This document shows positions 24,970-44,184 of a stretch of 62,280 nucleotides of DNA, in pieces. Both the position numbers and the translations under genes were made by a program. Source of the stretch: Lachnospiraceae bacterium (lineage in GTDB: Bacteria; Bacillota; Clostridia; Lachnospirales; Lachnospiraceae); contig JAFUNK010000009.1 in assembly GCA_017482205.1 (NCBI GenBank), positions 1-62,280 of the forward strand, given 5' to 3'. The notes under the pieces are model-generated. The model did not search any database. It saw only the letters and a program-made list of their open reading frames with translations, and was not told where the DNA came from. How positions within the stretch are numbered: position 1 is the stretch's first letter; each line of letters begins with the position of its first letter.

Positions 24970-25494
24970 ATGGAACTGGAAATTCTGCATGCAATACAAA
25001 AAATGCATACGGACTGGTTGGACCCGATTATGGTGTTTTTGTCTGCATTAGGGAACGGAGGCATGATCTGGATTGCATTAAGTATCGTGCTGGTGGTTCC
25101 TAAGAGAACACGTGCCTGCGGGTTGACGATGATGGGTGCTATGGCACTGTCCTTTCTGATTGGCAATCTGTTTTTGAAAAATGTGATAGCCAGACCGCGG
25201 CCGTTTGTGGTAGATAGTTCAGTTACGCTTTTGATTCCCAAACCGGGAGAGTATTCCTTTCCGTCAGGACACACGTTAAATAGTGTGACAGCGGCAACGG
25301 TTATATTCCTTTATTTCAAAAAGGCAGGTATAGCGGCACTTGTGTTAGCGGGATTGATTGCTTTTTCCAGAATGTATCTGTTTGTACATTATCCTACGGA
25401 TATTCTGGGCGGAATTATTCTGGGAATTATGGATGCCATGCTGGCATACAAAATAACACAAATGGTTATAAAAAAACGGGAAGAGAGACTTTAG
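24970..25494 (+). CDS. PAP2 family phosphatase
   Basis: A 174-residue membrane phosphatase with the three-part PAP2 signature: KNVIARPRPF (about 74-83), FPSGHT (about 97-102) and SRMYLFVHYPTDILGG (about 137-152). About five hydrophobic segments. Likely substrates are undecaprenyl pyrophosphate or phosphatidic acid. A terminator overlaps its stop codon. Confidence 0.9.
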   Translation: MELEILHAIQKMHTDWLDPIMVFLSALGNGGMIWIALSIVLVVPKRTRACGLTMMGAMALSFLIGNLFLKNVIARPRPFVVDSSVTLLIPKPGEYSFPSGHTLNSVTAATVIFLYFKKAGIAALVLAGLIAFSRMYLFVHYPTDILGGIILGIMDAMLAYKITQMVIKKREERL

Positions 25495-25510
25495 GGTCTC
25501 TCTTTTTTGT
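25485..25510 (+). terminator. Terminator overlapping the PAP2 stop codon
   Basis: GAGAGAC and GTCTCTC pair around a short loop holding the TAG stop, followed by six T's. Confidence 0.8.
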
Positions 25511-25583
25511 GGGCAGGTTGCACATTACGGCGGAGTAGAAAAGGTCGCAATGTGACAGGCACAGGCATGGGAAGGTTCTTTGC

Positions 25584-25611
25584 TAAACTCTTTTTTTAAA
25601 TATGTCGATAT
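25584..25611 (+). promoter_or_regulatory. Candidate sigma-28/sigma-D-type promoter
   Basis: CTAAA (TAAA at 25584-25587) is followed after 17 nt by TCGATAT (25605-25611), one mismatch from the flagellar sigma -10 CCGATAT. The spacer is one or two nt longer than usual. No sigma-A promoter of comparable quality was seen between the terminator at 25510 and the gene. Confidence 0.45.
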
Positions 25612-25641
25612 ATTAAATACCCGATGGTGGGTAACAGTTGT

Positions 25642-25697
25642 GGGGAAGGAACCCCTTTTGGAAGCACGAAAGTGCTTCTTCATGCAGACAAGGAGGT
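25642..25697 (+). promoter_or_regulatory. 5' leader with two CsrA-type sites and a GNRA hairpin
   Basis: GGGG and CCCC (25642-25655) enclose an AAGGAA loop, the usual hairpin-loop presentation of a CsrA GGA site. Next is GAAGCAC-GAAA-GTGCTTC (25661-25678), a perfect 7-bp hairpin with a GNRA tetraloop. Then ACAAGGAGGT (25688-25697) matches the full CsrA consensus ACANGGANGU and is also the Shine-Dalgarno of the gene at 25704. Repression of translation by CsrA is inferred. Confidence 0.5.
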
Positions 25698-25703
25698 GCA
25701 GGC

Positions 25704-26897
25704 ATGAAAATAAGTCAAAGTAATGTTGCCATGGCGGCAACAAGAGAAGCGTCCCAAACGTATGTTACACAGAGAACGGTGAGCGGACAGGTGTGGACTA
25801 CGGATGGGGGACAGGCAGAAGTGGTAAGTATGAATGCGGCCGGATGGTCAGAACAATCGGCATCTTTGGAGCTTTCTGCCGCACAAAAGGAAGCAGCAAA
25901 GGTATTGGAAAAGAACGAAAACCAAAATAAGCAGATGTCCGCTGATACTAAAAGATTGGCCCGCCAGGTAGAAAGAATGACAGGCAAGCCCGCAGAAGCA
26001 ACACCCGGTGAAACGGAAGAAGATTTTAAGATTAAAATGCTTCGCAGGCTGTTGGAGTCTTTGCGGGCGATGCAGGAGGGGCGAAAGCCGGATTATGAAA
26101 AGCTGGAAAAGATGGAGAGAAAGAGTGTAAGTCTTAGTGCACAAAGAAACAAAAGCTTTTCGTTTTCACTTGCGGCAGTCGGCGTACAGGCAGGTAGCGG
26201 AACAGCTGTAACCGTAGGCGGAAGCGGTCATTGGGAAGAAAAAGTGAGTGTATCCAGTATTTTTACTGACAAAGAAGTAACTACTTTTTCTACCGTAGGA
26301 CAGGTGCAGACGGAGGACGGACGTTGTATAGACTTTAACTTAAATCTGGAAATGTCCAGAGAGTTTACCAGAGCAGTCGGTATGGAATATACCCGTAAAA
26401 CTTTTTGTGTAGATCCGTTGGTAATTAACCTTTCCGGTAATCCGGCATCTTTTTCAGACCAGACCTTTTTCTTTGATTTGGATGCGGATGGTACGGAAGA
26501 AGAAATTGCAAGTCTTTCTGCGGGAAGCGGTTTCCTGGCACTGGACAAAAATGATGACGGCATTATAAATAACGGCAAAGAGTTGTTTGGACCTCAGAGC
26601 GGAGACGGTTTTGCTGATTTGGCTGCTTATGATGAAGACAGTAACGGCTGGATTGATGAAAGTGACAGTGTGTTCAAGGATTTAAAGATATGGACGAAGG
26701 ATGAAAATGGAGGAAACAGGCTGATTGCCATAGGTAAAGCCGGTGTGGGAGCTATTTATCTGGGACATACAGCGACGGAATTTTCTCTTAACAAAGAAAT
26801 AACCAATGAGACGCAGGGAATTGTACGAAGCACAGGTATCTTCTTGAAAGAAAGCGGAGAAACTGGTACAATACAGCATGTAGACTTGATTGTCTGA
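25704..26897 (+). CDS. Hypothetical protein with EF-hand/dockerin-like calcium loops
   Basis: A 397-residue protein without a recognised whole-length family. The N-terminus (MKISQSNVAMAATREASQ) has no signal peptide. Residues about 80-150 are helical and charged. Residues about 250-320 hold three acidic loops of calcium-binding type: DLDADGTEEE, DKNDDGIINNGKE and DEDSNGWIDESD. The ATG at 25704 follows AGGAGG; an upstream GTG at 25638 lies inside the leader hairpins and is rejected. The sigma-28-like and CsrA-like leader suggests a flagellar-regulon or surface protein exported without a Sec signal, which is a hypothesis. Confidence 0.75.
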   Translation: MKISQSNVAMAATREASQTYVTQRTVSGQVWTTDGGQAEVVSMNAAGWSEQSASLELSAAQKEAAKVLEKNENQNKQMSADTKRLARQVERMTGKPAEATPGETEEDFKIKMLRRLLESLRAMQEGRKPDYEKLEKMERKSVSLSAQRNKSFSFSLAAVGVQAGSGTAVTVGGSGHWEEKVSVSSIFTDKEVTTFSTVGQVQTEDGRCIDFNLNLEMSREFTRAVGMEYTRKTFCVDPLVINLSGNPASFSDQTFFFDLDADGTEEEIASLSAGSGFLALDKNDDGIINNGKELFGPQSGDGFADLAAYDEDSNGWIDESDSVFKDLKIWTKDENGGNRLIAIGKAGVGAIYLGHTATEFSLNKEITNETQGIVRSTGIFLKESGETGTIQHVDLIV

Positions 26898-26970
26898 TTA
26901 AGAGAATAAATACTTTCAAGGTGAATGGCGGAATATTTTGAGTTGTTCACATGAAACAAAGGAGCATTAC

Positions 26971-27954
26971 ATGAAACTTTTTGTATATAGTCTCAGAGAA
27001 TTTGATGAAAAACAATATTTTGATTACTGGTGTGAGAGCTGTGGGGTAACCTACAGCTCCACCACTGAGGCACCAAAACCTCACAATCTGCATTTGGCAG
27101 AGGGTTATGATGCCATAAGTATTATTACGACACCGATGGATGCAGATATGCTGGCTGTTTTGAAAAAAGGCGGTGTAAAGTGTGTATCCACCAGAACCGT
27201 AGGATATGACCATGTGGATATCAAAGCGGCAGAAGAATTAGGCATGACAGTCTGCAATGCACCTTATCCGCCCAATAGCGTGGCAAATTATGCCATTATG
27301 CTGATGTTAATGTGTTGCAGAAGAGTGACGCATATTTTGAAACGCAGTGAATTGCAGGATTACACCTTAAACGGCAAAATTGGAATGGAACTTTCTAATT
27401 GTACGGTTGGTATTATCGGTACGGGAAAAATCGGACGTACCGTGATAGAGCATCTGAAAGGTTTTGGCTGCCGTATACTGGCACATGATTTATATCAGCA
27501 GAAAGAAGTGGAGGAACTGGCAGAGTATACGGACCTTCACACTATATACAGGGAGTGTGATATTATATCCCTGCATATGCCATCTACGGAAGAGAACTTC
27601 CACATGATAAACGAAGAGGCATTGTCGGAGATGAAAGACGGTGTAATTTTGATTAATACTGCCAGAGGCAGCCTGATAGATTCTGCGGCAATGATTGCCG
27701 GACTGGAAAACGGTAAAATTGGTGCTGCTGGTTTGGACGTAATTGAAGACGAACTGTCCTTATACTATTACAATTTTTGTGGAAAGCCCATGGACAATCA
27801 TGAATTGGCACTGCTACGCTCTTATCCCAATGTTATCGTAACGCCCCACACGGCTTTTTACACCGTAGAAGCGGTGGAGCATATGGTAAAAAACAGTATT
27901 GCCGGTTGCCTGCATGCTTTGAACGGGGAAGAAAATCCTTTTAAAGTGGTGTAG
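26971..27954 (+). CDS. D-2-hydroxyacid dehydrogenase (D-lactate dehydrogenase-like)
   Basis: A 327-residue NAD-dependent dehydrogenase that interconverts 2-oxoacids and D-2-hydroxyacids. The Rossmann motif is VGIIGTGKIGRTVIEHL (about 146-162). Catalytic positions appear as INTARGSLID (Arg, about 229), GLDVIEDE (Glu) and VTPHTAFYT (His, about 290). VSTRTVGYDHVDIKAAEELG is typical of fermentative D-LDH and hydroxyisocaproate dehydrogenases. The ATG at 26971 is preceded by AAAGGAG; an earlier frame start is unsupported. Confidence 0.92.
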   Translation: MKLFVYSLREFDEKQYFDYWCESCGVTYSSTTEAPKPHNLHLAEGYDAISIITTPMDADMLAVLKKGGVKCVSTRTVGYDHVDIKAAEELGMTVCNAPYPPNSVANYAIMLMLMCCRRVTHILKRSELQDYTLNGKIGMELSNCTVGIIGTGKIGRTVIEHLKGFGCRILAHDLYQQKEVEELAEYTDLHTIYRECDIISLHMPSTEENFHMINEEALSEMKDGVILINTARGSLIDSAAMIAGLENGKIGAAGLDVIEDELSLYYYNFCGKPMDNHELALLRSYPNVIVTPHTAFYTVEAVEHMVKNSIAGCLHALNGEENPFKVV

Positions 27955-43680: not shown

Positions 43681-44184
43681 ATGAATAATAACGCATTTAG
43701 AAACTTATCTTACGGAGTTTATATTGTCAGTACATGGGATGAGGGCAGAGCAACAGGATGTACTGCAAACAGTGCCATGCAGATTACGGCAGAGCCTGCA
43801 ACGATTGCAGTCAGCATCAATCATCAGAACTATACTAACCAATGTATTGAAAAGACGGGTAAATTTGCAATTTCTGTTCTGGGAGAGCATTCCGAGCCGT
43901 CGCTGATTGGCGGATTTGGATTCAGAAGCGGCAGAGATGTAAATAAATTTGACGGTATCGCCCATGAAGTGAAAGGGTATATGCCTGTTGTCAGTGATGC
44001 CTGTGCATATTTTACCTGTGACGTGATAGATAAAATGGAGACGGAAACACATACCGTGTTTTTGGGAAAGGTCACGGATTGTGATGTATTAAAGCAGGAT
44101 ACACCCATGACCTATGCTTATTATCATAATGTTATCAAAGGAAAGAGCCCTAAGGCAGCGCCGACTTATCTGCCTGAAGATTAA
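43681..44184 (+). CDS. Flavin reductase-like domain protein
   Basis: A 167-residue FMN-binding split-barrel protein (NLSYGVYIVSTWDEGRATGC, AISVLGEHSEPSLIGGFGF, CDVIDKMETETHTVFLGKV). Clostridial high-molecular-weight rubredoxins carry this domain with a C-terminal rubredoxin; here it ends soon after KSPKAAPTY without one. It may pass electrons to O2 or redox partners. The ATG at 43681 follows AGAGGA; the ATG at 43678 is also possible, and an upstream extension is unlikely. The last 35 bp overlap tadA. Confidence 0.88.
   Translation: MNNNAFRNLSYGVYIVSTWDEGRATGCTANSAMQITAEPATIAVSINHQNYTNQCIEKTGKFAISVLGEHSEPSLIGGFGFRSGRDVNKFDGIAHEVKGYMPVVSDACAYFTCDVIDKMETETHTVFLGKVTDCDVLKQDTPMTYAYYHNVIKGKSPKAAPTYLPED

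Follow-up and report, generated by a model that had tools for sequence, protein, structure and literature searches.

A stand-alone family of FrpC self-processing-module relatives with sigma-28-type promoters and CsrA-type leaders in flagellated Bacillota

The window is a 62,280-nucleotide stretch of DNA from a Lachnospiraceae bacterium (assembly GCA_017482205.1, contig JAFUNK010000009.1), corresponding to contig C4 of a 28-contig, 2.16-Mb assembly that is 74% complete. On its forward strand, which carries all window features described here, an ATG at 25704 opens a gene for a 397-amino acid protein (25704..26897) for which neither Pfam nor NCBIfam searches named a family. Upstream of the gene lie a sigma-28 (FliA)-type promoter and a leader in which two GGA motifs are presented in hairpin loops of the CsrA type. 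A sequence-only reading of this region had suggested that the gene belongs to the motility regulon and described its product as a calcium-loop protein. We confirmed to the base the promoter, both hairpins, the Shine-Dalgarno sequence and the start codon that it had reported. Its account of the leader was correct and its suggestion of export suitably cautious, and on present evidence its assignment of the gene to the motility regulon is supported by the conservation of the promoter and the GGA sites, by the FliA gene, and by a flagellin gene with a similar GGA hairpin. Its description of the protein was incomplete, since the three loops are present but form part of a larger domain. The stronger result lies outside the stretch that it had addressed: the protein belongs to a stand-alone, flagellum-linked family of relatives of the self-processing module (SPM) in Bacillota.

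Members of the family are about 330-470 amino acids long and share a layout: a conserved start leads into a middle region that varies and is partly helical, a long beta-hairpin is predicted next, and the module forms the C-terminal end. In the window protein the SPM-like domain spans residues 238-397 (26415..26894) and was recovered by phmmer, by a profile search and by Foldseek. The single sequence matched the SPM of FrpC (6sjw) with an E-value of 2.5e-7 and the profile matched it with an E-value of 1.1e-9. The FrpC SPM was the only PDB sequence found below E 0.001, and on this ground we rejected the description of the product as an ordinary EF-hand protein; weak EF-hand matches, which for no single family exceeded 9 of 58 members, understate the module. 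An AlphaFold2 model built from 58 sequences had a mean predicted local distance difference test (pLDDT) score of 74.7; of the 16 ten-residue blocks from residue 241 onward, 13 scored 85-96 and the others 72, 77 and 76. The best Foldseek match of this model was 6sjx, the precursor form of the module (E 8.6e-11, probability 1.00, template-modelling score 0.70 by target and 0.34 by query), and after 6sjx and 6sjw the next match had an E-value of 0.036. Kinship to the SPM is therefore close to certain. For the N-terminal half the PDB yielded nothing at E 0.001 or below, and its weak matches to pore-forming beta-hairpins (E 0.035 or higher) were discounted as resemblances between long strands.

Conservation was followed in two sets of homologues. 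The start could be placed in 58 homologues, which make up the first leader set; among 80 loci from named genomes, 8 were not placed and 1 had fewer than 120 nucleotides upstream, and the second set comprises 71 leaders. At the N-terminal edge of the module, Asp237-Pro238 (26412..26417) occupies the position of the scissile bond of FrpC. Together with Leu239 it is invariant in the first set (58/58), and the Asp-Pro pair is present in all 72 placed named loci. The profile alignment begins exactly at this proline, which corresponds to residue 1 of 6sjw_A and with which the cleaved module begins. Three loops of the form D-x-[DN]-x-[DN]-G follow, at residues 258-263, 281-286 and 310-315. The first is a calcium-loop-like motif, D258-x-D-x-D-G (26475..26492), in which D258, D262 and G263 are invariant. 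The second runs from D281 to E293 (26544..26582; D281, N283, D285 and E293 invariant) and the third from D310 to D321 (26631..26666; D310, D312 and D321 invariant), both aligned with EF-hand-like sites of FrpC. Near the C-terminus, Asp394 (26883..26885), invariant in 58 of 58 sequences, is the candidate counterpart of FrpC D579; the sequence alignments to FrpC stop before this residue, and the match is one of position, not a residue-level superposition. A regular expression recovered the C-terminal aspartate in 67 of the 72 named loci, the others being L130, with a different neighbouring residue, L143, with an asparagine, and L154, L180 and L187, whose C-termini are extended. The second tryptophan of FrpC, W519, is kept in the family, and the loop equivalent to FrpC D521-E532 is shorter here.

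The FrpC study (PMC7078468) describes how calcium folds the module and strains the Asp414-Pro415 bond, which breaks and leaves an aspartyl anhydride that can link to lysine. In the same study, the D579A exchange abolishes cleavage and D579N does not, while D478A reduces cleavage and D478N does so moderately. The known module is stated there to bind calcium with an affinity of about 150 uM, which corresponds to extracellular levels, and RTX proteins are proposed to be kept unfolded by low cytosolic calcium. The family described here resembles the FrpC module in sequence kinship, predicted fold, the Asp-Pro pair at the N-terminal edge, the calcium loops, the W519 equivalent and probably the D579 equivalent. 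Unlike FrpC, a large RTX protein with type I secretion, the window protein has 397 residues, and in the family the module ends a protein without RTX repeats in flagellated Bacillota. An SPM-like region in a Gram-positive organism is also described, in PMC7692872, for FtxA of Filifactor alocis; FtxA differs in its large size and in its RTX character, with 16 calcium repeats. Our literature search found no paper linking an FrpC-type module with flagella; a review of RTX proteins and a review of nanotechnology came up for both terms, and the string 'flagell' does not occur in the main text of PMC12538545, which deals with SPM homologues for ligation. We class the window protein as a relative in which the essential bond is retained, and only as a putative active member. 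Cleavage at Asp237-Pro238 is probable.

The other end of the protein carries a conserved signature, with the consensus M-[KR]-I-x-x-S-x-x-x-M-x-S-x-R-x-Y (25704..25760), in which I3 is invariant and M1, S6 and M10 are each conserved in at least 90% of the 58 sequences. We regard this signature as a candidate export signal. The sequence-only reading had seen no Sec signal, and our scan agreed: the 11-residue Kyte-Doolittle maximum within the first 45 amino acids of the window protein was 0.61, and none of 130 homologues exceeded 1.6, on a scale used without known Sec proteins as a yardstick. Since no Sec-like stretch was found in these 130 homologues and the N-terminus is conserved, flagellar export would be the simplest route out of the cell, and on balance we expect the product to be exported.

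The promoter (25584..25611) reads TAAA-N16-GTCGATAT, or equivalently TAAA-N17-TCGATAT, with TAAA at 25584-25587 and TCGATAT at 25605-25611, separated by exactly 17 bases. The same spelling (taaa, 17 bases, tcgatat) is listed for a flagellin of R. hominis. A search of the 2.16-Mb genome for TAAA-N13-17-NYCGATAW returned 62 matches, against 32 when the pattern was read backwards, so that a lone match is weak evidence; what makes this promoter significant is its conservation in relatives. In 8 of 9 close orthologues CCGATAT, and not GCCGATAT, stands at the same place. Within 350 nucleotides upstream, TAAA-N13-17-NYCGATAW, taken as the strict promoter pattern, was found in 28 of 58 homologue leaders versus 1 of 214 controls, and a loose pattern in 46 of 58 versus 4 of 214. 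In the second set the promoter was present in 43 of 71 leaders versus 5 of 236 controls. Controls in both comparisons were mechanically called open reading frames (ORFs) of at least 150 amino acids that were not de-duplicated, and the 214 included loci chosen for holding the sigma-28 pattern, a bias that works solely toward a higher control rate. Of the 129 leaders in the two partly overlapping sets 120 are distinct, and the leaders are related to each other, so these counts are not counts of independent events. The leader counts exclude L056, which lies at a contig edge and lacks a start, and L072, whose N-terminus could not be placed; for L011 and L022 the nearest start codon was used in place of the N-terminal signature. 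Upstream of the gene, a search for sigma-70 promoters over 25400-27050 gave no promoter-like site. The gene for FliA itself is present in the same genome (G000:C27:276106-276771, 265 bits, above the cut-off).

Folded as RNA, the leader from 25618 to 25706 has a minimum free energy (MFE) structure of four hairpins, with an energy of -30.1 and a z-score of -2.24; 5 of 200 shuffled sequences folded equally well. The hairpin at the expected transcript start (TACCC/GGGTA, 25618..25633) is predicted by the MFE fold only. CsrA-type site 1 (25642..25655), GGGG-AAGGAA-CCCC with the GGA in a hexaloop, is seen in the sequence, in the MFE fold and in its conservation: AAGGA is kept in 10 of 10 leaders (the window and nine close orthologues), and the outer G-C pair is replaced by A-U in two of them. 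Formal pair counting was limited to this hairpin, in which three of the four pairs never vary, so that the count is little informative by itself. Between the two GGA sites stands a GNRA-capped hairpin, GAAGCAC-GAAA-GTGCTTC (25661..25678), visible in the sequence and the MFE fold. Its sequence differs among close orthologues, whose alignment is out of register here, and an MFE hairpin is found at that place in 9 of 10 leaders (not in L047). CsrA-type site 2 (25681..25706; sequence and MFE fold) is a hairpin around the Shine-Dalgarno sequence; its hexaloop, AAGGAG, presents the GGA, and the start codon is paired within it. As the sequence-only reading had claimed, the Shine-Dalgarno sequence ACAAGGAGGT at 25688-25697 agrees with the CsrA consensus ACANGGANGU at every fixed position. 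The Shine-Dalgarno ACAAGGAGGTGC is invariant in the same 10 leaders, and the outer pairing of site 2 is predicted in some, not all, orthologues. No Rfam family was found for the leader at the gathering threshold.

Across homologues the GGA sites are conserved as the same loop closed by different stems. A-N-GGA-N hexaloops closed by at least four Watson-Crick pairs within 130 nucleotides of the start occurred in 25 of 58 homologue leaders versus 3 of 214 controls, and in 24 of 71 versus 2 of 236 in the second set. One of the three control matches in the 214 set belongs to the flagellin gene of the window's own genome, which has a similar GGA hairpin 43-30 nucleotides upstream. Of seven control matches in the 236 set, Pfam assigned two to FliD_C (one just below the cut-off), one to FlxA and one to a lytic transglycosylase, and one further match resembles an FlgG-type rod protein by eye; the control rate in this set is therefore itself partly flagellar. 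Pooling the 120 distinct leaders, 51 of 553 NNGGAN hexamers were closed by a stem of at least four pairs, versus 30 of 3662 hexamers for 14 other triplets together. All 51 begin with A, and they represent 39 different loop and stem combinations.

This arrangement recalls two known systems. In Campylobacter jejuni, PMC4894983 describes repression of flaA by CsrA through two ANGGA hexaloops, the second lying on the ribosome site. The leader described here likewise has two GGA hexaloops with the second over the ribosome site, but its GGA motifs are 44 nucleotides apart with a hairpin between them, in contrast to the 21-nucleotide spacing in flaA (18-23 nucleotides in some distant homologues of our gene), and its target is not flagellin. 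With the homeostasis loop of hag, FliW and CsrA in Bacillus subtilis, whose logic is set out in PMC6529632, the locus shares a sigma-28-type promoter, a GGA on the Shine-Dalgarno sequence and, in relatives, a fliW-csrA pair; it differs in that the gene does not encode a flagellin and that CsrA binding is putative. Taking promoter and leader together, regulation by FliA and CsrA is very likely, the binding of CsrA itself being predicted from the leader.

Of the 150 genomes in the family sample 39 hold a match to the protein, as do 110 of 138 in the genus sample and 47 of 398 in the phylum sample; some matches are partial or lie within large frames. In the family sample flagellin was present in 39 of 39 homologue genomes versus 82 of 150 overall (p 2e-13), and after exclusion of G151 and G190, whose sole match lies inside a large ORF, in 37 of 37 (p 2e-12). 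All ten genomes with the closest orthologues contain fliW (in G027 the orthologue is present as fragments only), and by motif a csrA ORF lies directly beside fliW in all ten. Among 61 genus genomes the presence of csrA and of the homologue agreed in 55 (47 with both, 8 with neither; Fisher p 8e-6), and the six discordant genomes, the window's own included, are all at most 80% complete.

The nearest named relatives of the 397-amino acid gene come from Lachnospiraceae metagenome assemblies; homologues are also present in culturable relatives such as Lachnospira multipara ATCC 19207, Pseudobutyrivibrio sp. ACV-2 and Roseburia sp. 1XD42-69. Its genome neighbours encode a PAP2 protein, a permease and a 2-hydroxyacid dehydrogenase, and gave no functional clue. 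The same genome holds a second copy of the family (G000:C19:43992-45104) with a sigma-28-like site of its own at 43802-43828. Several further loci were recorded in passing. Module-like matches also occur inside large ORFs (about 700-3700 amino acids) of the Bacillota genomes G008, G044, G146, G151, G190, G206, G240, G261 and G402. On the minus strand of G000:C1, a 128-amino acid ORF with a sigma-28-like promoter precedes flagellin, with a GGA hairpin at the junction (L106:8265-10642). Neighbouring small proteins at L122:1542-2270, L162:4293-4925 and L187:546-1331 have sigma-28 or GGA-hexaloop leaders and Pfam matches to FlxA and to FliD_C (in L162 narrowly below the cut-off), which suggests a wider set of minor flagellar proteins under FliA and CsrA. 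A lytic transglycosylase (SLT) gene adjoining a homologue has a sigma-28-like promoter (L145:532-1227). Finally, a strict sigma-28-like site on the minus strand of G000:C1 (56827-56854, L079) lies 29 nucleotides upstream of an ORF that by eye resembles a GT2 glycosyltransferase, possibly one that glycosylates flagellin.

The reading that we prefer, with a probability of roughly 0.6, is that the gene encodes a late flagellar-regulon protein that is exported and clips itself in external calcium, its N-terminal part perhaps becoming linked to lysines. FliA would start transcription near 25618, and CsrA would bridge the two GGA hexaloops of the leader, the second over the Shine-Dalgarno sequence, so that translation is held back. 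Once flagellin is exported, FliW would be freed and would remove CsrA, and translation would proceed, which would time synthesis to the late phase during flagellin export. The product would leave through the flagellar type III apparatus, cytosolic calcium being too low for the C-terminal module to fold. Outside the cell, calcium would fold the module and Asp237-Pro238 would break, and the aspartyl anhydride would either be hydrolysed or join the N-terminal 237-residue part to a lysine of the filament, the cell surface, mucus or the host. This last, linking step is tentative, with odds somewhat below even. More speculative again is a motility-timed covalent surface glue of gut commensals, in which small proteins exported by the flagellum would activate themselves in calcium, break at Asp-Pro and fix their N-terminal halves to lysines on adjacent cells, in mucus or in the filament.

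A number of observations weigh against this reading, and some of them favour other explanations. The promoter is absent from one close orthologue (L048), only the -10 element is retained in L053-L055, even the loose promoter pattern is missing from 12 of 58 leaders, and 33 of 58 have no GGA hexaloop within 130 nucleotides, among them the second copy in the same genome. RTX repeats are lacking in the family, and neither such repeats nor a Pfam match were seen in the 397-amino acid sequence. In the phylum sample the association with flagellin is weaker (45 of 47 homologue genomes versus 322 of 398, p 0.002) because most sampled genomes have flagellin. The two phylum exceptions are 61-63% complete and hold partial matches; about ten of the 47 matches are partial or odd, and the 37 strong ones all have flagellin (37/37, p 3e-4). 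If the leader were of the ordinary housekeeping kind, its Shine-Dalgarno sequence being strong, then its hairpins and GGA motifs would be incidental. The Shine-Dalgarno sequence itself does supply a GGA: all 47 leaders with an upstream hexaloop carry one in this region, but so do 120 of all 129 leaders, near the start, and this feature is therefore unspecific. Among the other triplets CGA has the highest rate of stem closure (6 of 134), and the GGA rate is not clearly higher (p 0.08). Neither csrA nor fliW was found in the window's own assembly. The sequence-only reading had looked to FliA, flagellin, CsrA and FliW, of which the first two are present in the genome, and had held that absence of csrA would speak against it; yet the assembly is incomplete, full flgK is missing from it as well (only partial matches below the cut-off), and csrA stands beside fliW in every genome with a closest orthologue. 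Set against the excess of stem-closed GGA over the 14 other triplets together, and of hexaloops over controls in both partly overlapping leader sets, a housekeeping leader is highly improbable.

The remaining alternatives accept a link to the flagellum and differ in what the protein does. It could stay in the cytoplasm and respond to calcium there, regulating flagellar export or acting as its chaperone, as the lack of a Sec-like stretch would allow. Flagellin, CsrA and MCP motifs were found in the flanks of 0 of 138 homologue loci, in a scan whose positive control was run for the flagellin motif only. A module with the affinity reported for FrpC (PMC7078468) would be idle in the cytosol, and the gene appears to be under the same late-class control as exported flagellin; we consider a cytoplasmic role rather improbable. 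A somewhat stronger contender, though still unlikely, is that sigma-28 and CsrA control hold but the module is inactive and binds calcium only, serving the flagellum or cell surface as a structural or sensory component. The counterpart of FrpC D478 is P297 in the window protein and T in the family consensus, W451 is not kept in the family, the FrpC loop D419/D421/D423 reads N/S/N in the window protein, and the AlphaFold2 model is silent on activity. However, the invariance of Asp-Pro in both sets, down to about 35% identity, is hard to explain if the bond is unused. Asp394 is likewise invariant in the first set, and the asparagine of L143 matches D579N, an exchange that FrpC tolerates according to the same source.

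The window protein belongs to a stand-alone family of SPM relatives in flagellated Bacillota, and its leader tells when the product is made. To the CsrA-FliW loop of Lachnospiraceae it adds a candidate target that is not flagellin. If active, the family would supply biotechnology with a new protein-ligation module triggered by calcium, and in gut commensals it would form a direct link between motility and covalent surface chemistry.
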